64,000 nt of DNA from Phycisphaerae bacterium (GTDB lineage Bacteria; Planctomycetota; Phycisphaerae; UBA1845; Fen-1342): assembly GCA_028279405.1 (NCBI GenBank), contig JANQNU010000035.1, positions 62,001-126,000 on the forward strand. The letters run 5' to 3'. The position numbers and the translations under genes are program-made. The notes under the pieces are model-generated. The model was not told the origin of the DNA. It saw only the letters and a list, made by a program, of their open reading frames with translations, and did not search any database. The first letter of the stretch is position 1, and each line of letters opens with the position of its first letter. This document shows positions 15,652 through 50,396 of this stretch, in pieces.

Positions 15652-16033
15652 TCACATCTTCCTGAGGCACACGAGTTTAATGGCAGCATAGCTGCATCGA
15701 GATCGACTGCTGAGACAGGCTCACTCAAAACAACCAACTACACACTAAGTGGATCGAACCCGGATACACAAGCGCACTTCGAACGTGATCCGTGAAGCTG
15801 TCCGCCTCAATAGTCGACTGCGACAGGCGGGATACTGTTGACTCTGGGAAGAGTATCCTCAGATACAAGGCCTTGCGAAGGATGATCGCCACCAGTGTGC
15901 TTCGTAGTGCTGCCGAGGCCCCGCCGATGGCTACTCGTTCAAATCGATACGAAGTGCCTGTGTCGGCGAGATACGTTTGAACCCCACCTAGCTGCGGAAG
16001 GTCTCAGCAGTTGGCGAGGTCTTCCGATTCATC
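15652..16033. other. Gap between ampC and the cassette array; no gene seen
   Basis: Low coding potential on both strands. A 62-codon frame (15792-15980) lacks a ribosome site and a recognisable domain. No tRNA-Pro-type direct repeat is visible here, so the array as defined starts at 16034. The region could include an older, eroded cassette end. Confidence 0.5.
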
Positions 16034-16080
16034 AATCGGGGTGACTGGACACCAATAGAACTTTCTCTGGCTCAGATCAG
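16034..16080 (+). repeat. Direct repeat plus Y end, leftmost copy
   Basis: The tRNA-Pro 3'-end repeat (16034-16049) followed by the start of the Y sequence (CACCAATAGAACTTTCTCTGG). It shares about 45 bases with the copies at 17791 and 19918, then diverges. A local inverted repeat CTGGCTCA/TGAGCCAG follows within 16067-16093. Confidence 0.75.
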
Positions 16081-16300
16081 TCTATTGAGCCAGCAGACGC
16101 CGGTTCAGCTTTCGCGATGGAGTACGCATGCCACCGTGAATACCCGATGTATGTCCAATCTAACCGACAAGATCCAGTCCTCCTTCGCCATCAACGTTCG
16201 GAGCCACACCGGGCCGCCGACAGCCTCCCACAGACGATCGTTGCATAGCTTCAGGTCACGGATCTGTCGCGGCGGGAATTGTTTACAGATACAATCATCG

Positions 16301-16837
16301 ATGAGCATGGCTAGGAATGTGGAGATCAAGGCCCGGGTATCTCACGAGCGCTTGAAAAGCATCGAACGCGAAGCGAGAGCTCGCTCGAAGACACCGGTTG
16401 AGCAACTCGAGCAGAATGACACCTTCTACGCGGTTGGCTCTGGCCGCCTGAAGCTGCGCCGCTTTGCCGATGGCGCCGCCGAGCTCATAGCGTACGATCG
16501 ACCTGATGATCAGGGCCCAACCCTTTCAAGCTACGTCCGCTGCCCTTGTTCTGATCCCGACTCGCTCGACGAAGCGCTCTCACAGACCATCGGCGTACGG
16601 TCCCGGGTGAAGAAATCACGCCGCGTCCTGATCGTCGATCAAACACGGGTTCACCTTGATTGCGTGGCAGGTCTCGGCTCCTTCGTCGAACTTGAGGTCA
16701 TTTTGCGCGAAGATCAAACGCTCAAGGAGGGCCAGGCGATTGCCCACCATCTCATGCATGAACTCAGGATCAAGTCCGATTCTCTTGTACGAGAGTCTTA
16801 TGTCGATCTCATCGAGCGTGTGGAAGAACGAGAATAA
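16301..16837 (+). CDS. CYTH-domain (CyaB-like class IV adenylate cyclase) protein
   Basis: A 178-residue single CYTH domain. The N-terminal MARNVEIKARV carries the ExK start of the signature; further conserved basic and acidic residues follow (GRLKLRRF, VKKSRRVLIV, VHLDCVAGLGSFVELEVIL). CYTH enzymes bind triphosphates through an eight-stranded tunnel with metal; CyaB-type members can make cAMP, others are thiamine triphosphatases or phosphohydrolases, and activity cannot be assigned here. ATG codons at 16301 and 16307 are both possible and neither has a clear ribosome site; 16085 is rejected as its upstream residues are repeat-derived. It is cargo of cassette unit 4, convergent with a GNAT gene. 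Confidence 0.85.
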   Translation: MSMARNVEIKARVSHERLKSIEREARARSKTPVEQLEQNDTFYAVGSGRLKLRRFADGAAELIAYDRPDDQGPTLSSYVRCPCSDPDSLDEALSQTIGVRSRVKKSRRVLIVDQTRVHLDCVAGLGSFVELEVILREDQTLKEGQAIAHHLMHELRIKSDSLVRESYVDLIERVEERE

Positions 16838-17014
16838 GGTCTGCGCTATCAACCAGACCTTCCCGTCGCCCCGAGCGATGAGAGCCCGGACCAGGACAGC
16901 GGCGTCCGAATCCCTTGCGGAGTAGGGACATTAGCGTCGCCGTCGGAATGCTCCCAAACACTTCGCCTCAGCCGTTCTCGCACCGGAACTCACTTTCCCG
17001 TGCAGCATGCAATG

Positions 17015-17467
17015 CTATTGCAGCGTCTTTCGCTGGATGACGACACCGATCTGCTCGGCGTTAAGCTCGAAGCCGACGATCTCAAACCCTGACTTCAGGT
17101 TGAGCACGATCATTGGCGAATTGGATGCTCTCGTGCGCGTCTCGATTCTTGAGTACCCATGTTCGGCCGCCCACTGGTGCTGATCAGAGAGTAATTGTTG
17201 GGCGATCCCTTGCTTCCTATACTCCGGATGAACACCGCCCAGCCAACTGTAAAACAAAGTGGAGCCCAGCCGGTATCCGAGCTTAAATCCGATGAGATCG
17301 CCATCGATGCTCCTTGCTCGCGTGATCGCGGGGCCTGTAATGTGCGGCAATCGTGAGCGCACATACATCGGATCAAACGTTTCGAACAGTCGGCTACACA
17401 GCTCGATTACTTCGTCCTCGCCCGCACGGTCAATCCTACTTGTCGTTTCAATAGCGATATTTGCCAT
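17015..17467 (-). CDS. GNAT-family N-acetyltransferase
   Basis: A 150-residue single-domain acetyltransferase. The acetyl-CoA-binding motif A is clear (LGGVHPEYRKQGIAQQLLSDQHQWA, with the R/Q-x-x-G-x-A/G loop), followed by motif B (SRIETRTRASNSPMIVLNLKSGFEIVGFE). Substrate unknown; small GNATs of this kind acetylate amines, antibiotics or protein N-termini. ATG 17467 is used; a GTG two codons upstream is an alternative. It is cargo of cassette unit 4 and is oriented opposite to its companion CYTH gene, unlike the uniform orientation seen in integron arrays. Confidence 0.9.
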   Translation of the reverse strand: MANIAIETTSRIDRAGEDEVIELCSRLFETFDPMYVRSRLPHITGPAITRARSIDGDLIGFKLGYRLGSTLFYSWLGGVHPEYRKQGIAQQLLSDQHQWAAEHGYSRIETRTRASNSPMIVLNLKSGFEIVGFELNAEQIGVVIQRKTLQ

Positions 17468-17626
17468 ATGCACGAGTCTATACGATGGCTTTTCCAGGTG
17501 TAACCTCCTCCACGCTTAGGTTCGACAGCGGTGATTTTCGAGGTCGTTTCGAAACTGGCAGAGCAGCCGTAAGATCCGATTTCAAAACGGAGTCAACAAG
17601 CCCGATTGGCGATGATCGTAGTACAC

Positions 17627-17790
17627 AATCGGGGTGACTGGATTGTGCTGCCCAGCGCCGTCGCTTCGCTCGGCGTGGACTACGCGAGACGCCCGCTTCG
17701 CCTGACGGCTCGCGGTCGTCGGTCGCCGGTTCAAATCCCCAGTAACGCAGATTGCCTGCCGACCCGCCTGACGGCAGATCAACGGGTAAT
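17627..17790 (+). repeat. X end, full copy 1, flanked by tRNA-Pro-type direct repeats
   Basis: 164 bases starting with AATCGGGGTGACTGG and running to the next direct repeat at 17791. It is about 90 percent identical by eye to 22756-22917. It includes a GC-rich part shared with the genome's REP-like sequences, a T-arm-like CGGTTCAAATCCCC and a terminal inverted repeat built on CTGCCG...CGGCAG. Open frames through it on both strands are repeats, not genes. Confidence 0.8.
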
Positions 17791-17885
17791 AATCGGGGTG
17801 ACAAGACACCAGTTGAACTCTTTGTAGCCCAGATCGGCCTCTGGAGCTTGAAAACGCGGGTATTGGTTTCAGGGTGAGAACTGAC
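17791..17885 (+). repeat. Direct repeat plus Y end, long copy
   Basis: AATCGGGGTGAC followed by Y. It aligns over about 90 bases with 19918-20010 (shared AGATCGGCCTCTGG, then GAAAACGCGGG/GAAACGCAGAG and GTGAGA). Contains AGTTGAACT. It forms the left terminus of cassette unit 3. Confidence 0.75.
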
Positions 17886-18080
17886 ACGCTCAGAGTCCCG
17901 CTATGCCCGATGAGTGTCTCATCGCACAGACGGAAACATTGGTCGATCGCCGTGGCCGCTGTCTTCGCCGCGGGGCGAAGCAACCTCGCCGGGCCTAGTA
18001 GAGCTATCAGGAAATGCCTAGCCGCTCACAGCTGAGGACCTGTCAGTAGCCTCCGCCCACCGGGTTGGTGTAAAGCATGC

Positions 18081-18124
18081 TTGACATGGTGTTTTGCTAA
18101 CTATACACTATGTTCCATGGAACA
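18081..18124 (+). promoter_or_regulatory. Promoter and palindromic operator of the membrane protein-HTH pair
   Basis: TTGACA (18081-18086), 17-base spacer, TACACT (18104-18109), then a perfect 14-base palindrome TGTTCCA/TGGAACA at 18111-18124 that would overlap the transcription start. The HTH protein encoded second in this operon is the natural candidate to bind it. Confidence 0.65.
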
Positions 18125-18145
18125 AACATTTGAGAAACTTGTCGC

Positions 18146-18583
18146 ATGAGTCACCAGGAACGCGCCAGCGCCGTGGCAATCGTCATCGGCCTCTTGTTGA
18201 ACGGATACGTGTCGATTCGCCTGTGGCAGCTCTTTGAAGCTGGGGCCCTGTCGGGCGAGAACGCCCCGATGATGTGGGCCCAGGCCATCGTTTGGGTCAT
18301 CCCTGCTGCCATCGTGCTCACCATTGTTTCGAACATCGTCTTTGCGATTGTGACGAAGGGCAGTACGCAGAAGACAAACACAGATGAACGTGACCATCTG
18401 TACAGGTCTCGAGGCATGTGCGTAACGCTTATCGTCTTCGGCCTTGGCTTCACCGCGATGTTGATCGGGCTCGCTGTTGGCTGGCCAGTCGTTTTTGGAC
18501 TGACCCTTATGTACGCATCAGCAGCACTGGGCGACCTGCTCGGTCAATGCACGCGGCTGGTCAGCTATCGGATCGGGTGTTGA
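18146..18583 (+). CDS. Small four-helix membrane protein, partner of HTH regulator
   Basis: A 145-residue protein with four hydrophobic segments (about residues 8-28, 45-70, 95-112 and 113-132) separated by short loops, including a charged cytoplasmic-type loop KGSTQKTNTDERDHLYRSRG. Small membrane proteins of this layout are frequently encoded directly before a YgzD/XRE-type regulator; the function of the pair is not established. The stop at 18583 is one base before the regulator start, so they are coupled. Ribosome site is weak. Cargo of cassette unit 3. Confidence 0.8.
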   Translation: MSHQERASAVAIVIGLLLNGYVSIRLWQLFEAGALSGENAPMMWAQAIVWVIPAAIVLTIVSNIVFAIVTKGSTQKTNTDERDHLYRSRGMCVTLIVFGLGFTAMLIGLAVGWPVVFGLTLMYASAALGDLLGQCTRLVSYRIGC

Positions 18584-18584
18584 T

Positions 18585-18848
18585 ATGGCCGAACTGCGAA
18601 TCACGAACACAATCCGTCGTTTGCGATTCGAGAATGACGAGATGACGCAGCAGGCGCTTGCGGATGCCGTCGGCTGCACTCGCCAGACCATCGCAGCCAT
18701 CGAGAAGGCGAAGTACTCGCCGAGCCTTGAACTCGCAGTGCGCATCGCGATGGCGTTTGAACGGCCTTTGAGCGAAGTTTTCATTTTCGAGAGCGACGGG
18801 ACAGGGATTGCAGTGTCGCGAGAACCCGATCGGGACTCGGCTCGATGA
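18585..18848 (+). CDS. XRE-family helix-turn-helix regulator
   Basis: An 87-residue protein that is essentially one lambda-repressor-like DNA-binding domain (LRFENDEMTQQALADAVGCTRQTIAAIEKAKYSPSLELAVRIA) with a short acidic tail. It belongs to the short 'YgzD-like' type found next to membrane genes. The palindrome at 18111-18124 upstream of the operon is its likely operator, giving autoregulation. It could be part of a two-gene maintenance or stress module in the cassette, but I see no toxin signature in the partner. Confidence 0.88.
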   Translation: MAELRITNTIRRLRFENDEMTQQALADAVGCTRQTIAAIEKAKYSPSLELAVRIAMAFERPLSEVFIFESDGTGIAVSREPDRDSAR

Positions 18849-19173
18849 AGCAAACACTCGTGTACGTAGCCCTTGTTGTCACATCCGCAAAAAACAGCAC
18901 GTCTCGGGGGCGGCGATCTCGCCCATCGCGACTTGCCGAGGCCGAGCAACTAAGCGGGCGACATATGCCCACGGAGCGCTGGGGTGCATTCAGTAAGCAT
19001 CGCGAGTTCGTTGCGACTCGCGAATGTATCCGCGAGTCAGTTCGCCACACCGTCTTATGGATATTCAGCTGAAATGACAAGGTGAGATGGCATCCTGCAG
19101 AAGTGAACCGGGATCAACACGCCCGCACCGCTCGGCAGTGACACTCGACCAGATGATACGAAGAGGGAGTGCA
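18849..19173. other. Non-coding stretch with CGCGAGT inverted repeats inside unit 3
   Basis: No convincing gene. CGCGAGT (19001-19007), ACTCGCG (19016-19022) and CGCGAGT (19031-19037) form alternative 7-base-stem hairpins. ACTTGCCGAGGCC near 18937 recurs near 19892 next to a Y end, suggesting a shared ancestral segment. This may be the remnant of an internal cassette boundary. Confidence 0.45.
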
Positions 19174-19803
19174 ATGAAGCTACAAAGATCCGAGTGGATC
19201 GTCGTGATCAGTCTGCTCCTGTTGAGCTTCATCCCATGTGTTGGTGGTACGATCCGGCTGATTGAACTCGGGCTCGGCGCGACATTTGAATTTCTGCCCG
19301 AAAAACCAGAGATCAGATCCACTCCCATTCCCGTGCAGATCCATCTCGCAACCGCCATCCCCTACTGTGTTTTGGGAATCGGACAGTTTCTCCCCAGCGT
19401 CCGTCGTCGACACCCAAAGCTACATCGAATCACAGGCCGGGTGCTCGCTCTTGCCGGAGTTGTTTCTGTCTTGTCTGCGTTGTGGATGACTCAGTATTAC
19501 GCGTATCCGGACGGCGTTCAGTCGCCTCTCCTCTATGTGGTCCGATTCACCGTTGGGGTTACGATGCTCGGGTCCATCTGCTTGGGGATCGCTAATGCGA
19601 TGAAGAGAAAGATCGGCACGCATCAGGCTTGGATGATTCGAGCATATGCTCTGGGCCAAGGCGCGGGAACACAGTCGTTAATAGGGATCCCGTGGGTCTT
19701 AGCGGCTGGAGAACCTACTGGGACTTCACGCGATTTCGTAATGACAGGAGGCTGGGTCATCAACGCTCTCGTAGCCGAGTGGATCAACCGCCGGCAGCGT
19801 TAG
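19174..19803 (+). CDS. DUF2306-like multi-pass membrane protein
   Basis: A 209-residue protein with ATG at 19174 and GAGGGAG 5 bases upstream. Five to six hydrophobic segments are visible (about 10-30, 52-72, 85-103, 117-140, 165-180, 188-203). The motif RRRHPKLHRITGRVLALAG resembles the conserved HP-x-LHR-x-x-GR loop of DUF2306/DUF2269-type proteins, and GTHQAWMIRAYALGQGAG fits the second conserved loop. These proteins are of unknown function. Last gene of cassette unit 3 before the boundary. Confidence 0.78.
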   Translation: MKLQRSEWIVVISLLLLSFIPCVGGTIRLIELGLGATFEFLPEKPEIRSTPIPVQIHLATAIPYCVLGIGQFLPSVRRRHPKLHRITGRVLALAGVVSVLSALWMTQYYAYPDGVQSPLLYVVRFTVGVTMLGSICLGIANAMKRKIGTHQAWMIRAYALGQGAGTQSLIGIPWVLAAGEPTGTSRDFVMTGGWVINALVAEWINRRQR

Positions 19804-19917
19804 ATTCCTCGATCCGCAGGCTGGTTCAAATCGGTCAGGTGTGTCCTTGGGTGACGGGACAAGATTGAACTGCCCAGTAAGTGCGGATGGCACTTGCCGA
19901 GGCCATCACGCTCGCTG

Positions 19918-20010
19918 AATCGGGGTGACTGGACGCCAATAGAACTTTTTCTGGCCCAAATCGGCCTCTGGTCGTCGGAAACGCAGAGTTTGACCTTGCC
20001 GTGAGATTAA
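19918..20010 (+). repeat. Direct repeat plus Y end; degenerate copy just upstream
   Basis: AATCGGGGTGACTGGA at 19918-19933 followed by Y. Immediately left (about 19820-19878) lie a degenerate T-arm-like GGTTCAAATC and a second worn Y-like segment (GGGTGACGGGACAAGATTGAACT), which looks like a nested empty or deleted unit. Confidence 0.72.
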
Positions 20011-20052
20011 GCTCAAGCTCGCGATCATCGGTGCGAGTGGTAGCATTCAGGC

Positions 20053-20589
20053 ATGAATACATATCGATCTGGACCAGAGACCGAAAGAATCGAGCACCGC
20101 GCGTTCACGCTCAATGATTGCGAGGCGTTCTATCGCCTCAATAGCCATTCAGAGGTCATGCGCTTCACCGGCGAGCCACCGCTGAATTCACTGGAAGACG
20201 CTCGACAGGCCATCGCCGACTATCCGGATTTCGAAACGGTCGGTTACGGACGGTGGGCCTGTGTCTTGAAAGAAACCCGTGCCGTCATCGGATTCTGCGG
20301 CCTGAAATACTTGCCGGATCTGAACGAGGTTGATGTGGGGTTCCGGTTCCTGCCTGAGTATTGGGGGCAGGGGATTGCAACAGAAACGTGTTCCGCGTGC
20401 ATCGCGTTCGGTTTCGATGTTCTCAAGCTCAACTGCATCCTGGGATTGGTGCTCGCAGAAAACAAAGCGTCGATGCGCGTCCTCGAAAAGTGTGGGATGA
20501 CCAGGCACGGCGAAATCACGTGCAACGGTGAGCGTGCTCTGAAGTACGAAATCGCTCGCTCGACCAAAGTCCAGAAACTGAGCGGATAA
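20053..20589 (+). CDS. RimJ/RimL-type GNAT acetyltransferase
   Basis: A 178-residue protein of the Acetyltransf_3 type: N-terminal IEHRAFTLNDCEAFYRLNSHSEVMRF, central VIGFCGLKYLPDLNEVDVGFRF, acetyl-CoA motif LPEYWGQGIATETCSACIAFGF, and C-terminal LAENKASMRVLEKCGMTRHGE. These features are those of enzymes that acetylate ribosomal protein N-termini or small molecules such as aminoglycosides or toxins; the substrate here is unknown. It is the only cargo gene of cassette unit 2 (774 bases repeat to repeat), the smallest unit, so this one gene with its ends may represent the minimal mobile form. Confidence 0.92.
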   Translation: MNTYRSGPETERIEHRAFTLNDCEAFYRLNSHSEVMRFTGEPPLNSLEDARQAIADYPDFETVGYGRWACVLKETRAVIGFCGLKYLPDLNEVDVGFRFLPEYWGQGIATETCSACIAFGFDVLKLNCILGLVLAENKASMRVLEKCGMTRHGEITCNGERALKYEIARSTKVQKLSG

Positions 20590-20630
20590 TCCAGCCGGCA
20601 CGACAAGACGCTGGCTCAAACGTCGGGCAG

Positions 20631-20725
20631 GTCAAATCCCACAACAACGCAATCGCCCGCCGACCCGCCTGGAGGCGGATCAACGGACAATAATCGGGGT
20701 GACAAACGGCTATTGAACTTTTTGA
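20631..20725 (+). repeat. Partial X end, direct repeat and short Y end
   Basis: GGTCAAATCCCACAACAACGC through GACAAT (20630-20691) matches the last third of X, with the hairpin CCGCC-TGGA-GGCGG replacing the CCGCCTGACGGC of the other copies. The repeat AATCGGGGTGAC follows at 20692 and a short Y (GGCTATTGAACTTTTTGAGC). Confidence 0.72.
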
Positions 20726-21003
20726 GCAAGAAACGGCTACCTGGAATCCCGGTTTTGTTCAGCTTGTCGAACGCATCGCTGGATGACCCCTTGGATCGTG
20801 TCACTCCAGCATGAAGTACTTCGCTCCCCGGCCCCTTGCCCGCTGCTCGCGTCCACGCAGTCTGCGTCGGACGATGAATCCGAAGCAGTTAGGACCAGAC
20901 ACTTGGTACGGGTGTTTTGTCACACTTCCGGGAATCAGCGACTTCGGGAATCTGTCGCGGAACTTCTGAGAGTGGCGACCCACGTTGCCGACGTTGTTAC
21001 GGT

Positions 21004-21843
21004 CTATATTTTCCTCGCGACCACTGCCATATCAGGAGAGTCTGGGGAAAATGCAGAGCCTGCAACATCAGAATAGAACTCTATGGCCTGGAATCCGTTC
21101 TTCTCGAGTTCCTCTCGCAGTGACTCTCTACTGAAGTACTGCAGCCAGTTGTAAACGATGCGAGTTCTTGCCTTCTCGACTATCGTGTACTTATCAAGGG
21201 TCACCTTTTCCTTGTCATATTTGAAGGTGTTCAAGAAGCCGTAGTAGTCTTCCGTAGACCAAAAATTGTCGAGTTGGTTGCGCTCGTATGCGGCAGCTTC
21301 ATCTCTGCCGTCGAACACATTCAGCGAATGAACATCCAAGAACACTGACCCGCTAGGCTTGAGGAAGGCGTGGAACTTGGCAAGCAACGTCGCTCTCTGC
21401 GAAGGACTCAGCGCACAGAAATCGCAGAAAATCATCGTAATGAGATCGAGTCGTTTCCCGGTCTCGAACTCAAGGTAGTCCTCCTCGCAATAGTCAATCT
21501 CTAGTCCCTTCTGGTGAGCAACTTTCCGTGCATGTTGGATGGATCTTGCCGAGAAGTCGATTCCAGAAACCTCAGCGCCAGCGGACGCGAACAGGGTCGT
21601 GTATAGCCCCGGACCACACCCAAAATCCGCGATGCTCGTGCCGCCGTCTACTCCGAAGTGGGACACGATCCAGTTTGCGGAACGAGCAATGAAACCTGCG
21701 TTTCGGGATGCAAGGTCAATGGACTCATTTAGATGGTATTCAAGCATCTTCGTCGAAGTGTGTTCATCAGTCCATAGGTCCTTTGCCGTGTAGAACTGAA
21801 ATGGCGCAGGACGCGAACGCATTTCTTCCAGTACGTCAAACAC
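21004..21843 (-). CDS. Class I SAM-dependent methyltransferase
   Basis: A 279-residue protein with a Rossmann-type SAM-binding domain: motif I IADFGCGPGLYT (about residues 70-81), motif II acidic residue in VSGIDFSARSI, and the post-motif DLITMIFCDFCALSPSQR. It resembles small-molecule methyltransferases (UbiE/Methyltransf_11/25) and has an N-terminal helical cap (WTDEHTSTKMLEYHLNESIDLASR). Substrate unknown. It is cargo of cassette unit 1, divergent from the MerB-like gene, with a 200-base spacer between them. Its codon choice looks less GC-rich than that of the flanking chromosomal genes. Confidence 0.9.
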   Translation of the reverse strand: MFDVLEEMRSRPAPFQFYTAKDLWTDEHTSTKMLEYHLNESIDLASRNAGFIARSANWIVSHFGVDGGTSIADFGCGPGLYTTLFASAGAEVSGIDFSARSIQHARKVAHQKGLEIDYCEEDYLEFETGKRLDLITMIFCDFCALSPSQRATLLAKFHAFLKPSGSVFLDVHSLNVFDGRDEAAAYERNQLDNFWSTEDYYGFLNTFKYDKEKVTLDKYTIVEKARTRIVYNWLQYFSRESLREELEKNGFQAIEFYSDVAGSAFSPDSPDMAVVARKI

Positions 21844-22047
21844 CGATGCCCCTCTTTCACATAGCTCGGTTATAGGAAAGTCTGACTATCAACTGTAGTT
21901 CACAAATGTGCGGTCTACAGCGATGGCAGTTACTGTCGCAAGTCTCATTTTAACAAGTGGTCTCCCGTCGGTCTCGCCATGTTTCCTGCGCGACAGGCGG
22001 CCCCTGCCTAGCGCTCACTTGAAGTCCGTGTTATCCTTGAGGGTGTC

Positions 22048-22725
22048 ATGAATGTTTCGACCCTGCACGAGACGATCATCGCGTCGTTCCTTGAACGCCA
22101 GCGCCCCCCGACTCTATGTGAAATCGCCTCCCGCTTTCGGCGCGACGCGGCCGACGCGCGGCGGGCGCTGCGCGAGCTCGCCGACAATCACGGAGTGGTG
22201 CTTCACCCCAACTCCGAGGACATCTGGATCGCCCACCCATTCTCCGCAGCACCAACGACATTTGTGGTAAGCTCGGGCACAAGCAAGTGGTGGGGCAACT
22301 GTGCCTGGTGTTCGCTGGGTGTGGCAGCGCTTGCCGGCGGAACGGCGACCATCGAAACGCGAATCGGTGCGATCGATGATCATGCGACGATCAGGATCGA
22401 AAACGGAGAGCTGCTCGACACCGACTTCGTTGTGCACTTTCCGATACCGATGCAGCGCGCTTGGGACAATGTCATCTACACATGCTCTGTTATGCTGCTC
22501 TTCCGCAATGAAGCCCAAGTGGACAAGTGGTGCGCCACGAGAGGTATCGCCAAAGGAGATGTGCGACCGATCGCACAAGTTTGGCGTTTCGCGGCCGAGT
22601 GGTACGCACGCCACGCCGACCCGAACTGGACCAAGTGGTCAGCACAACAAGCCGCGGCGATATTCTCGCGTCACGGTCTAACCGGTCCTATCTGGACGCT
22701 TCCAAGCGAGGCCGCGCGCTTCTGA
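22048..22725 (+). CDS. MerB-like (organomercurial lyase family) protein with altered active site
   Basis: A 225-residue protein with the MerB layout: an N-terminal winged-helix-like domain (residues 8-60, LCEIASRFRRDAADARRALREL) and a MerB-type core starting NCAWCSLGVAALAG. MerB uses Cys96, Asp99 and Cys159. Cys88 here matches the first and Cys146 (YTCSVMLLF) the last, but the position of Asp99 is Gly91, so classic protonolysis of carbon-mercury bonds is doubtful. No merA, merR or merT is nearby. GAGGG precedes the ATG. It sits next to the X end of cassette unit 1, closest to the tRNA. Confidence 0.78.
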   Translation: MNVSTLHETIIASFLERQRPPTLCEIASRFRRDAADARRALRELADNHGVVLHPNSEDIWIAHPFSAAPTTFVVSSGTSKWWGNCAWCSLGVAALAGGTATIETRIGAIDDHATIRIENGELLDTDFVVHFPIPMQRAWDNVIYTCSVMLLFRNEAQVDKWCATRGIAKGDVRPIAQVWRFAAEWYARHADPNWTKWSAQQAAAIFSRHGLTGPIWTLPSEAARF

Positions 22726-22755
22726 TCGCAACGGCCCCCGAGAAACCGTGAAAGA

Positions 22756-22917
22756 AATCGAGGTGACTGGGATTGTGCTGCGCAGCGCCGTTTCGCTCGG
22801 CGTGAACTGCGCGAGACGCCCGCTTCGCCTGACAGCTCGCGGTCGTCGGTCGCCGGTTCAGATCCCCTGTAACGCAGATTGCCCGCCGACCCGCCTGACG
22901 GCAGATCAACGGGCAAT
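22756..22917 (+). repeat. X end, full copy 2, adjacent to tRNA-Pro
   Basis: 162 bases from the variant repeat AATCGAGGTGACTGG to the tRNA 3' end. It is nearly the same as 17627-17790. Outer inverted repeat TTGCCCG/CGGGCAA spans the last 40 bases. This is the junction expected between an integrated element and its intact tRNA target. Confidence 0.8.
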
Positions 22918-22919
22918 AA

Positions 22920-22994
22920 TCGGGGTGACTGGATTTGAACCAGCGACCTCTGCGTCCCGAACGCAGCGCTCTGGCCAAGCTGAGCTACACCCCG
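22920..22994 (-). tRNA. tRNA-Pro (anticodon CGG)
   Basis: The minus-strand transcript folds as a full cloverleaf: acceptor CGGGGTG/CACCCCG, D stem GCTC/GAGC, anticodon stem CTGCG/CGCAG with loop TTCGGGA (anticodon CGG), variable AGGTC, T stem GCTGG/CCAGT with loop TTCAAAT, discriminator A. The 3' CCA is not encoded; the cca gene is at 33408-34664. Its 3' end is the repeated core of the cassette array on its downstream side. Confidence 0.96.
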
Positions 22995-46743: not shown

Positions 46744-47742
46744 ATGAACCGAAAGCATCTTGCCTTCACATTGATCGAGTTACTTGTCGTGGTCGCGATC
46801 ATCGCCTTGTTGATCGCGATTCTGGTCCCGACCCTCAACGGCGCGCGTGAACAGGCCAAGAAGGTCGTCTGTCTCGCCAATCTAAGCAACATCGGTAAAG
46901 CGCTCGCTCAGTACTCCTCCGAAGACGACAAAGAGCACGCCTTTCCGGTCTCGCAGTCGATCATTGACACAGGCCTGTCAGGCAACGCGCAACTCTTCGT
47001 TTCGTGGTTCGCGTGGGGCGGGCGCAATGGTCAGGTTCCGTTTCAGTTTACCAGTTTCAGTGGGATTCTGATCGACGACACCACGATCTGGGCGGCCCGT
47101 CACCGTCCGCTCAATCGTTACATCTACGGGGCCTACACCGAAGAGGAGGCGAACGAGATGCCGGCCTTCGAGTGTCCGTCCGATTCCGGCTATCCCAAAC
47201 AGATCGGTGGCGGCCCAAGCTCGATCATCGATGACGCGCCGCAAGCCATGCGCGGTATTCCCCAGTACGACTCGGTCGGCAACAGCTACCGGGGTAGCTT
47301 CATCAGTCGTGGTGGGCAGGGGCAAATGTTCACGGTCGGCGCGCTGGGGCACCGTTTGTCGACGCTGACGAACATTGGCGAGTTGATGGTGGCGGGCGAA
47401 CCGCTGTTTTTCAACATGCTCGGAACCAATGGCCAGATCACCAGCGGCGACCTGACGCTGGTGGAGATGGTGGGGTGGCACAAGCGACTGATGACCGATA
47501 ACTTGCTTTTTGGTGATGGATCAGCGCGCTCGACGCAGGCGGTTCAGGAAGCGCCGGCACCGGCTGCGGATTATCCGGACATTGATCCAAGTGCGATCAG
47601 CTTCCTTGTCCGTGGGCCGGGATGGCGCTTGGATTGCTACCCGACGCCGGGCGCGGTCGTTCGCGGAGGAAACGACGTGAGCTGGCTGAACCTGGACGCC
47701 GGCAAATGGCCCTTGCGCAGCTACCAGAACCTGATGAGATAG
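46744..47742 (+). CDS. Type II/IV prepilin-like N-methylated protein, paralogue 1
   Basis: A 332-residue protein with an N-terminal class III signal (AFTLIELLVVVAIIALLIAILVP), the Glu5-type methylation helix, and a large exported globular domain ending in the FGDGSARSTQAVQ motif of the planctomycete 'H-x9-DG' family (DUF1559-like). A conserved leader (CCGGGAGTTCC...CTCGGAGTCATCGTC) precedes the ATG, with GGAG 9 bases away. These proteins are secreted by a type II-like system and assembled or retained at the surface; function is unknown. It is the most diverged of three adjacent copies, and shorter at the C-terminus (no GPGNSLSRTGH tail). Confidence 0.88.
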   Translation: MNRKHLAFTLIELLVVVAIIALLIAILVPTLNGAREQAKKVVCLANLSNIGKALAQYSSEDDKEHAFPVSQSIIDTGLSGNAQLFVSWFAWGGRNGQVPFQFTSFSGILIDDTTIWAARHRPLNRYIYGAYTEEEANEMPAFECPSDSGYPKQIGGGPSSIIDDAPQAMRGIPQYDSVGNSYRGSFISRGGQGQMFTVGALGHRLSTLTNIGELMVAGEPLFFNMLGTNGQITSGDLTLVEMVGWHKRLMTDNLLFGDGSARSTQAVQEAPAPAADYPDIDPSAISFLVRGPGWRLDCYPTPGAVVRGGNDVSWLNLDAGKWPLRSYQNLMR

Positions 47743-48130
47743 CAGCCGAACACATGTTTTGAATGAAGGGGGTGCCGGTTGTGTCGACAGGGCGCGACCG
47801 GCTATAATCGCGCTGCGCCCTGGTTGAAGGGCGTGGCGTGTCACATCGCCTTTGCAGGATCTTGCTTTCTTTCGGAAACGCTCCCGAAGCCGGTTGGGCC
47901 GCCGCTAGGCGGTGATCGGTGGATTTTGGCGGTCCCGCTCGACGGCGGGAATTGAAATCCAGGCTGGATTGTTGTATTACTTGCCGTCTTCACCTCGTGG
48001 CACGGTCCTTGGTAAGACGGCCTCAACCACGTCGGTCGGCCGGAGATTGCTCGTATTCGTGGCGTGGACACTGGGAGAGTGCCGTTGGCGCTCCTGGGCC
48101 CGGGAGTTTCCCCAAACCGCGGAGTAGGTC
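47743..48130. other. 388-base spacer between prepilin-like paralogues 1 and 2
   Basis: No gene is visible. It contains a GC-rich region with CCGC/GCGG-type stems (CCCGCTCGACGGCGGG near 47936) and ends in the leader shared by the three paralogues (about 48098-48130). It may hold a transcription start for paralogue 2. Confidence 0.45.
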
Positions 48131-49171
48131 ATGAACCGAGAACGAAGTGCGTTTACGCTTATTGAGTTGCTGGTCGTGGTGGCGATTATTGCGCTGCTGA
48201 TCGCGATTCTGGTGCCGACGTTGAATGGTGCCCGCGAGCAGGCGAAGAAGGTTGTCTGCTTGGCCAACTTGAGCAACCTCGGAAAGAGCTTCGCTCAATA
48301 CTCGGCCGAGGATGACAAGGAGCACGCGGTTCCGGTGTCGCGGAGTATTCGGAATCTGACCCTCTCGCGCCTCGAGCAGCTGTTCGTGTCGTGGTTTGCG
48401 TGGGGGGGGCGCAACGGGCAGGTACCGTTCCAGATGACTTCGTTTAGTGGGCTGCTGATCGACGATGACACGATCTGGTCCGCCCGGCATCGCCCGCTGA
48501 ACCGCTACATTTACGGTACCTACAACGACGACGAAGCCAACGACATGCCGGCGTTCGCGTGCCCTTCCGATACGGGCTATCCGAAGATCGTCGGCGGTGC
48601 GACGCCGATTGTTGACGATTCGCCGGACACGATGCGCGGTGTTCCCCTCTACGATTCGGTTGGCAACAGCTATCGCGGCAGCTTCATTAGCACTGGCAGC
48701 TCGGGGTTTATGTTCACCATGGGGGCGCTGGGACACCGGTTGTCGACGCTCCAGAACGCGGCGGAATTGATGGTGGTCGGTGAGCCGCTGTTCTTCAACA
48801 TGCTCGGAACCAACGGGCAGTTGAGCAACGACGATCGTGAACTCGTCGAGATGGTCGGTTGGCACAAGCGTGTAATGACCGATAACTTGCTTTTCGCAGA
48901 TGGTTCGGCACGCTCGACGCAGGCTGTGCAGGACGTTTTGGCGCAGGCAGCCGACTATCCGGATGTCGATCCGACTCGGCTCTTCTGGTTTGTGCGCGGT
49001 CCGGGCTGGCGTCTGGACTGCTATCCGACGCCGGGTGCGCTGGTTCGCGGGGGCGCCGCCGGGGTGACGCAAATGCAGGGTGCTGCAGACAAGTGGCCCA
49101 AGCGTAACTTCCAGAACCTGATGCGCGGGCCGGGCAATAGTCTTTCGCGGACCGGGCATCGCGGGCGCTAG
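48131..49171 (+). CDS. Type II/IV prepilin-like N-methylated protein, paralogue 2
   Basis: A 346-residue paralogue with the same layout as its neighbours: class III signal peptide, methylated helix, globular domain with SWFAWGGRNGQVPFQMTSFSGLL and GNSYRGSFIST, C-terminal LLFADGSARST and a final GPGNSLSRTGHRGR. GGAG lies 7 bases upstream within a leader matching those of the other copies. It is close to paralogue 3 over the signal/helix region and more distant over the rest. Such families often assemble together as pseudopilins with distinct tips. Confidence 0.9.
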   Translation: MNRERSAFTLIELLVVVAIIALLIAILVPTLNGAREQAKKVVCLANLSNLGKSFAQYSAEDDKEHAVPVSRSIRNLTLSRLEQLFVSWFAWGGRNGQVPFQMTSFSGLLIDDDTIWSARHRPLNRYIYGTYNDDEANDMPAFACPSDTGYPKIVGGATPIVDDSPDTMRGVPLYDSVGNSYRGSFISTGSSGFMFTMGALGHRLSTLQNAAELMVVGEPLFFNMLGTNGQLSNDDRELVEMVGWHKRVMTDNLLFADGSARSTQAVQDVLAQAADYPDVDPTRLFWFVRGPGWRLDCYPTPGALVRGGAAGVTQMQGAADKWPKRNFQNLMRGPGNSLSRTGHRGR

Positions 49172-49233
49172 CGCTCGGCTGCTTGCGACGGTGTGGAATG
49201 CGGTCGTCGCGGCGGCAGCTTGACATTGACTAT

Positions 49234-49247
49234 TGACCGATAGGTCA
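49234..49247. promoter_or_regulatory. Small inverted repeat upstream of paralogue 3
   Basis: TGACC-GATA-GGTCA lies 109 bases before the ATG of paralogue 3, just after a TTGACA hexamer at 49220-49225. It may be part of a promoter/operator, but no good -10 element is at the usual distance. Confidence 0.3.
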
Positions 49248-49355
49248 GAATTGAATCCCACGTCGCTGCCATTATTTCGTGGAGGCGGCGTGGATATTGG
49301 ATGAACGCTTCTGGCGTTCCTGTACCGGGAGAATCCCCTAAACGCGGAGTAGGTC

Positions 49356-50396
49356 ATGAACCGAGAACGGAGTGCGTTTACGCTTATTGAGTTGCTGGTC
49401 GTGGTGGCGATTATTGCGCTGCTGATCGCGATTCTGGTCCCGACCCTCAACGGTGCGCGCGAGCAAGCCAAGAAGGTCGTCTGCCTCGCCAACCTGAGCA
49501 ACATGGGTAAGGCGTTCGCTCAGTACTCCTCCGAAGACGACAAGGAGCACGCGGTTCCGGTTTCCCGGAGCATTCGCAACCTGACCTTGTCGAATCTCGA
49601 GCAGTTGTACGTGTCGTGGTTCGCATGGGGCGGGCGAAATGGCCAGGTGCCGTTCCAGATGACGGCTTTCAGTGGATTGCTGATCGACGACGATACCATC
49701 TGGTCTGCGCGGCATCGTCCTTTGAACCGGTACATCTACGGTTCTTACAACGAAGAAGAGGCCAACGACATGCCGGCGTTCCAATGTCCGTCGGATTCGG
49801 GTTATCCGAAGATCGTTGGCGGGTCCACGCCGGTCGTGGATGATGCGCCCGTTGCGATGCGCGGCATCCCGATGTACGACGCGGTGGGCAACAGCTATCG
49901 TGGCAGCTTCATCAGCACCGGTGGCCAGGGTTTCATGTTCACGGTTGGTGCGCTCGGCCATCGGCTGTCGACGCTTCAGAACACTGGCGAGCTGGTCGTG
50001 GTTGGTGAACCGCTGTTCTTCAACATGCTTGGCACGAACGGTCAGCTGACGGCAACGGATACGCCGCTGGTCGAGATGGTCGGCTGGCACAAGCGTGTGA
50101 TGACCGACAACCTGTTGTTCGCGGACGGTTCCGCTCGTTCGACCCAGGCGGTCGAGGACGTCATCGCGCAGCCCGCTGATTATCCGGATGTTGATACGAC
50201 GGCGATCGGGTTCTTCCGGCGGGGTCCGGGCTGGCGGTTGGAGTGCTATCCGACGCCGGGCGCGATCGTGCGTGGCGGCGCCAACACGGTCAACTCCCTG
50301 CCTTGGGATGCGGACAAGTGGCCGAAGCGCAATTTCCAGAACATCATGAATGGGCCGGGTAACAGCCTTTCCCGGACAGGGCACGCGGGCCGCTAG
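49356..50396 (+). CDS. Type II/IV prepilin-like N-methylated protein, paralogue 3
   Basis: A 346-residue paralogue of the two preceding genes, ending GPGNSLSRTGHAGR like copy 2. The first ~85 bases of its coding region are virtually identical to copy 2, after which the sequence CCCGACCCTCAACGG matches copy 1 rather than copy 2, and further downstream it again resembles copy 2. This mosaic shows gene conversion. The shared leader with GGAG 7 bases before the ATG is present. The same surface or secretion role as copies 1 and 2 is expected. Confidence 0.9.
   Translation: MNRERSAFTLIELLVVVAIIALLIAILVPTLNGAREQAKKVVCLANLSNMGKAFAQYSSEDDKEHAVPVSRSIRNLTLSNLEQLYVSWFAWGGRNGQVPFQMTAFSGLLIDDDTIWSARHRPLNRYIYGSYNEEEANDMPAFQCPSDSGYPKIVGGSTPVVDDAPVAMRGIPMYDAVGNSYRGSFISTGGQGFMFTVGALGHRLSTLQNTGELVVVGEPLFFNMLGTNGQLTATDTPLVEMVGWHKRVMTDNLLFADGSARSTQAVEDVIAQPADYPDVDTTAIGFFRRGPGWRLECYPTPGAIVRGGANTVNSLPWDADKWPKRNFQNIMNGPGNSLSRTGHAGR

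Follow-up and report, generated by a model that had tools for sequence, protein, structure and literature searches.

A repeated element of a Phycisphaerae genome as the probable tRNA-proximal end of small cassettes integrating at tRNA-Pro genes in Planctomycetota

The X element, a repeat in the genome of a Phycisphaerae bacterium, is best explained (with a probability of roughly 0.75) as the unit forming the tRNA-proximal, or right, end of small non-autonomous gene cassettes whose integration is site-specific and targets the 3′ ends of tRNA-Pro genes in Planctomycetota. Its copies lie within an array at 16.0-22.9 kb of the window, the whole stretch of 64,000 nucleotides analysed here. When up to two mismatches are allowed, ATCGGGGTGACNNGA is matched eight times in the window, compared with a mean of 2.65 in shuffled sequences (none of 100 shuffles reached eight), and seven of these matches fall at 16.0-22.9 kb, all on one strand. 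The core, TCGGGGYGAC, corresponds in reverse complement to the final bases of tRNA-Pro, and the last core of the array is that of a living tRNA-Pro(CGG) gene; a direct repeat of the tRNA 3′ end, tested as a feature of additive tRNA-cassette islands, is present at the cassette ends. The other cassette end, termed Y, comprises about 40 bases including the tRNA core. The array is composed of the following features.

22920 to 22994, minus strand: tRNA-Pro(CGG) gene, anchor of the array (ARAGORN; Rfam RF00005, 64.9 bits)
16034 to 16071, plus strand: core and Y arm (profile match 5.4e-11; the window copies were seeds)
17791 to 17829, plus strand: core and Y arm (profile match 1.6e-11; the window copies were seeds)
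19918 to 19957, plus strand: core and Y arm, the query that found relatives (profile match 6.1e-13; the window copies were seeds)
20692 to 20730, plus strand: core and degenerate Y arm (profile match 4.6e-6; the window copies were seeds)
15969 to 16044, unstranded: F2-type right end, left border of the array (profile without window sequence, E 2.2e-8)
19856 to 19928, unstranded: F2-type right end (profile without window sequence, E 5.4e-13)
16034 to 17626, unstranded: cassette A, with a CYTH gene (16310-16837, plus) and a GNAT gene (17015-17473, minus)
17791 to 19917, unstranded: cassette C, with DUF2178-like (below cut-off), HTH and DUF2306 genes, all plus; it has a relative in Phycisphaerales UBA1926
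19918 to 20691, unstranded: cassette D, with a GNAT gene (20053-20589, plus)
20692 to 22756, unstranded: cassette E, with a methyltransferase gene (21004-21843, minus) and a MerB-like gene (22048-22725, plus)

No recombinase is encoded in the window array, none of the ten PF00589 matches of the genome lying inside 16.0-22.9 kb, and no transfer genes were seen in the window cassettes. Elsewhere in the window, positions 46744-50396 contain three consecutive genes (46744, 48131 and 49356) whose translations, inspected by eye, look prepilin-type and resemble one another.

The preliminary description presented X as a cassette end beside a tRNA-like core, with two copies about 90% identical and a third of the element recurring at 20631-20691, and each of these points is borne out, the core being that of a tRNA 3′ end. 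The two full copies are identical at 152 of 165 aligned columns (92%), the third piece matches either of them at 50 of 61 columns, and the borders repeat at the core, every X terminating at a reverse-complement copy of the tRNA-Pro 3′ end.

22756 to 22918, unstranded: X copy at the tRNA, adjoining the tRNA-Pro(CGG) gene; a core-to-core unit of about 162 nt with no Y arm, its left core carrying one mismatch (BLAST and alignment)
17627 to 17790, unstranded: second core-to-core copy of X, 92% identical
20631 to 20691, unstranded: right-end third of X only, forming the right end of the GNAT cassette (50 of 61 columns)

Each of the two X units that run from core to core without a Y might, at a guess, consist of a right end plus a tRNA fragment that has decayed. 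In its own genome (5.6 Mb), X is found by BLAST at these three places (E 9e-69 for the second and 7e-15 for the third) with no further copy at E <0.01, the next best match being at 0.02. A search of 200 related genomes yielded no convincing relative, a match of 27 of 29 bases in genome G053 being judged a chance one, and searches of plasmids and phages gave three weak plasmid matches and no phage match. X was also rejected as a known RNA family, tRNA being the sole significant Rfam match, and as a right end of type F2, to which the F2 profile lends no support: built with no window sequence, that profile has two window matches below E 0.01, both at cores, and misses X. X is therefore a member of the cassette system by place and design; its sequence family is so far private to its own genome.

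The Y end is far more widely distributed. With window positions 19912-19992 as query, matches at E≤0.01 were obtained in 15 of 120 genomes, often clustered a few kb apart, and an iterated profile identified 36 Y sites among the searched stretches, their consensus resembling AATCGGGGYGACWGKACRCCARTTGAACTTTTT. Y sites also occur in the cultured Roseiconus nitratireducens (L230 and L293). A strict Y pattern matched at least 118 stretches in the genomes of GTDB species; among the 118 matches listed, 113 are Planctomycetota by title, and of the remaining five, two correspond to a genome from the order to which the window belongs. Two stretches titled Alphaproteobacteria (L238 and L269) lie at positions coinciding with matches of G033, which belongs to the window's order; they are probably mistitled. 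Two contigs match the pattern among viral sequences. Within the window's order, the Y motif is found in 19 of 114 genomes and its reversed pattern in none. ARAGORN placed a tRNA-Pro gene to the right of the site and on the opposite strand, as in the window, at 19 of 129 Y sites in 120 loci, the linked genes having the anticodons CGG, GGG and TGG. The only other tRNA-Pro in these loci lies to the left, on the same strand, at one site, and other tRNAs occur near Y sites four times, in three arrangements. The absence of a tRNA-Pro at a given Y site says little, because most of the stretches are no longer than 8 kb.

Across genomes, 80 distinct closed units were delimited, of which 45 end at another Y, 26 at a tRNA-Pro and nine at a core alone. 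The median length of the 71 that end at Y or tRNA-Pro is 1632 nt (range 235-6928 nt). Cassettes carry mostly one to three unrelated genes, and among the 124 cassette ORFs with 120 aa or more, 106 lack a relative within the set. Genes are found on both strands (20,667 and 22,533 aa), and one contig of 39.8 kb bears eight Y sites, one of them weak. The cargo includes transporters, acetyltransferases, methyltransferases, a MerB-like gene and, as assessed by eye, a NACHT-type protein. Cassettes are shared between distant genomes: in five pairs, which together with the window pair were hand-picked from a longer list of matches, whole cassettes are 81-91% identical with breakpoints at the core, whilst their 300-nt flanks are 47-58% identical compared with 52% for random pairs (sd 2, max 58). 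One of the pairs shares a cassette that is closed by a Y in the first genome and by tRNA-Pro in the second. Cassette C of the window and its relative in Phycisphaerales UBA1926 (L235) are 75.8% identical over 1098 nt from the same core, but only 65% over full length, and a DUF2306 gene is present in both. Neither an excised circular form nor a vacant site in a sister strain was observed.

Integration of such units would call for a recombinase acting in trans, probably a tyrosine integrase. In the finished genome of Planctomycetales bacterium 10988 (L313), a tyrosine integrase of 410 aa starts 120 bases from a Y core, and relatives of it adjoin Y cores at L263, L253 and L264. The L313 integrase belongs to a large tRNA-targeting integrase family in the window's order, where it is found in 67 of 114 genomes; it is absent from the window's own genome. 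In 10 of 12 further loci (L371-L382), members lie beside tRNA genes of several isotypes. Presence of the family shows no association with Y (14/19 versus 53/95, p 0.20), on which ground an integrase of the L313 type was rejected as the universal enzyme. Tyrosine recombinases of about 200 aa, seemingly consisting of the catalytic domain only, were noted at L348, L350, L352, L353 and L356; these were rejected in the same role, being found in only five of 11 array-bearing genomes. The likeliest, as yet unproven, candidate is a tRNA-Pro-specific member of the L313 family acting in trans.

A different reading of the missing integrase is that the arrays are accreted, decayed tRNA-integrated islands whose units lost their integrases and are no longer mobile. 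This would make them relics akin to the cis-mobilizable element (CIME), described as a decayed ICE or IME that keeps its att sites and has no integrase (PMC5704250). The window array agrees with that definition on both points, its attL/attR-like cores being kept at both cassette ends and the integrase absent, and it shares with CIMEs, as far as the available part of that account extends, the tandem accretion at a tRNA gene. Seven of the ten tyrosine integrases (PF00589) of the window's own genome lie within 650 bases of the 3′ end of a tRNA gene, none of the seven being at tRNA-Pro; decayed tRNA cores and broken hairpin pairs occur in the window, and of the integrases beside Y cores one is broken and one partial (L253 and L264). 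In contrast to relics, however, the cassettes are of small and uniform size, with a median of 1632 nt, their ends are intact and their cargo differs, and whole cassettes recur at other places in other genomes; small units with uniform ends and one to three unrelated genes also differ from CIMEs as portrayed in the same partial account. Decay is thus a possible but distinctly less probable explanation than site-specific integration of cassettes that remain mobile.

The right end has a hairpin next to the core. The preliminary description noted an end-proximal hairpin kept despite differences in sequence; it is present in all three copies of X.

22878 to 22917, minus strand: right-end hairpin with 18 pairs on the tRNA strand
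20652 to 20691, minus strand: right-end hairpin, all 18 pairs retained via three compatible changes
17751 to 17790, minus strand: right-end hairpin with two pairs broken

On the minus strand, the hairpin at 22.88 kb has an 18-pair stem, ATTGCCCGTTGATCTGCC / GGCGGGTCGGCGGGCAAT, that includes four G.U pairs. The 61-nt pieces at 22.88, 20.65 and 17.75 kb fold at -34.6, -32.4 and -21.7 kcal/mol on the minus strand and at -20.7, -15.7 and -16.1 kcal/mol on the plus strand, the minus strand being more stable in all copies. The hairpin of X is without a T-run. Three copies of X are too few for an analysis of covariation, which was therefore carried out on relatives. Among 122 sites, the 60 bases to the left of the core fold with z<-2 at 58, as against seven in a control stretch to the right, and RNA of the tRNA strand is the more stable at 88, equal at two and less stable at 32. 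A T-rich run after the hairpin on the tRNA strand (at least four T in nine) is present at 45 of 96 sites, compared with 15 of 96 in a mirror test. The sequence families of the right ends differ (F1, F2 and F3), and the same families are also found directly 3′ of tRNA-Pro. In F1 (21 sequences picked by eye; 13 pairs), 96.3% of positions are paired, five pairs are changed on both sides, and the covariation score is 0.226, versus 0.150 in shuffles (reached by none of 500) and 0.089 or less in slid versions; the stem is followed by a T-rich run on the tRNA strand, which is the pattern of an intrinsic terminator, a G+C-rich hairpin with a T-run behind it. In F3 (22 rows, 20 distinct hairpins), 145 of 154 cells are paired versus 105 in shuffles (reached by none of 2000), whilst its pair types were reached by 643 and its double changes by 174 of 2000 shuffles. 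The alignment of F2 was poor and was left unscored for covariation. At three F3 sites (L190 9751, L191 12073 and L192 2195), the right end adjoins the start of a gene that by eye resembles a four-helix bundle, and these sites sit inside a long CTCTCC/GGAGAG inverted repeat.

The earlier proposal that pairing is kept over sequence therefore holds in the related right ends F1 and F3, but its corollary, recognition of the hairpin by a recombinase, does not fare as well. The strand bias, the T-rich run on the tRNA strand and the location immediately 3′ of tRNA-Pro speak more for a tRNA trailer or terminator, which may end or process the tRNA transcript, and it is more likely that the part read by the recombinase is the core with its Y arm, which the preliminary description did not name. 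In integrons, the attC boxes GTTRRRY and RYYYAAC mark the cassette junctions, and a folded single strand could by analogy be the recombination substrate here. Arrays of unrelated genes, structure kept over sequence and the favouring of one strand agree with such capture; against it, junctions read directly have the core TCGGGGYGAC and no GTTRRRY/RYYYAAC boxes, genes lie on both strands, many of the hairpins are terminator-like, and the five recombinases of other genomes tested all fall below the cut-off of the integron integrase model TIGR02249 (best 178 versus 265), which together make it improbable. Less probable still is that the hairpins are only ordinary tRNA terminators which homologous duplication copied along with the 3′ end of the tRNA, with no site-specific recombination, for although F1 has its T-rich run and X occupies a single locus of its own genome, breakpoints lie at a core of 10-12 bases across genomes amid unrelated flanks and Y is common far beyond that genome.

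A further element of the right end may be an arm site. The T-arm-like string reported in X, GGTTCAAATCCC, is indeed present, beginning at 17728, 65 bases out, and has relatives in the other copies at a near-equal distance (about 65 bases) from the core. Among 115 right ends, TTGAAC is found in 23 (four and five in two controls) and GTTCAA in 12 (two and seven), the positions of TTGAAC being scattered 55-110 bases out with peaks near 65 and 90; this weakly suggests TTGAAC/GTTCAA as a candidate arm site. An inverted tRNA arm was rejected as a hallmark, the window tRNA ranking only third in score (z 3.3; next 3.2). The inverted-arm pattern occurs in 17 of 114 genomes at a gap of 50-80, many of these chance-like, versus nine of 114 at a gap of 110-140. 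In five relatives, the T arm of tRNA-Pro recurs as an exact inverted copy about 60 bases past the gene (L169 11885-11965, L170 131-211, L171 10230-10309, L172 2594-2673 and L173 9680-9762); no array was seen near this copy at L169-L172.

Taken as cassettes integrating at tRNA-Pro, the units would each consist of the core (TCGGGGYGAC) with its Y arm, then the genes, then a right end in which a TTGAAC/GTTCAA arm-like motif sometimes stands about 65 bases out and is followed by the hairpin and the next core. A trans-acting tyrosine integrase would insert the cassette at tRNA-Pro, the insertion would restore the tRNA 3′ end, the right-end hairpin would become the new trailer or terminator of the tRNA, and successive insertions would give rise to an array. 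The design of X may also be employed at other tRNAs. In the same genome, the 3′ end of tRNA-Ser(GCT) is copied in tandem at a spacing of about 147 bases, and a single extra 3′-end copy, with at most one mismatch, exists for each of tRNA-Arg(TCT), Glu(CTC), Lys and Val(GAC). X-like units lie in tandem, about 147 bases apart, behind tRNA-Ser(GCT) (L110 1982-2500), and two related ones lie behind tRNA-Ser(CGA) (L116 12400-13870), where HMA-like, CsoR-like and methyltransferase genes were noted by eye.

Cassettes targeted to tRNA genes are already known in other bacteria. As far as the available parts of the reports extend, tRNAs are targets of gene cassettes with tRNA repeats in Ca. Actinomarinales (PMC7771536) and Alteromonas (PMC4119200), and tRNA-Lys repeats are found at additive islands of Methylophilaceae (PMC10872708). 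The Planctomycetota units resemble these additive flexible genomic islands in their tRNA target, the tRNA 3′-end repeats at cassette ends and their variable cargo, but differ from them as there described in having a conserved Y arm, covarying hairpin ends phylum-wide and a single tRNA isotype. Tycheposons, likewise cargo elements at tRNA genes, span 4-200 kb and contain xerD in the part of the account available (PMC10872708), whereas the units described here span 0.2-6.9 kb and have no recombinase. Unrelated single-gene units, structured end sites and the lack of a recombinase within the unit are shared with integron arrays (in part PMC4119200); the differences are a core from tRNA-Pro where integrons have attI/attC boxes, genes in mixed orientation and no integron integrase identified. 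A shared Y arm, a single tRNA-Pro target and covarying hairpin ends are absent from the descriptions in the available parts of PMC7771536, PMC4119200, PMC10872708 and PMC5704250, and no tRNA-Pro cassettes in Planctomycetota were found in the literature covered, a scope outside which bioRxiv preprints and most subscription papers fall. The Planctomycetota tRNA-Pro cassettes are thus a new variant.

Speculatively, and with the odds rather against it, Planctomycetota may operate a system of their own that parallels the integron. A dedicated trans-acting recombinase would capture integrase-free cassettes from a phylum-wide pool at tRNA-Pro, and every capture would re-terminate an essential tRNA gene through the portable, structure-conserved trailer or terminator that the cassette brings. 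One short motif makes cassette capture mappable across a large and little-studied phylum, and single-gene cargo is seen moving with exact borders. The arrangement also raises the question of whether incoming DNA can be the source of an essential tRNA gene's terminator.
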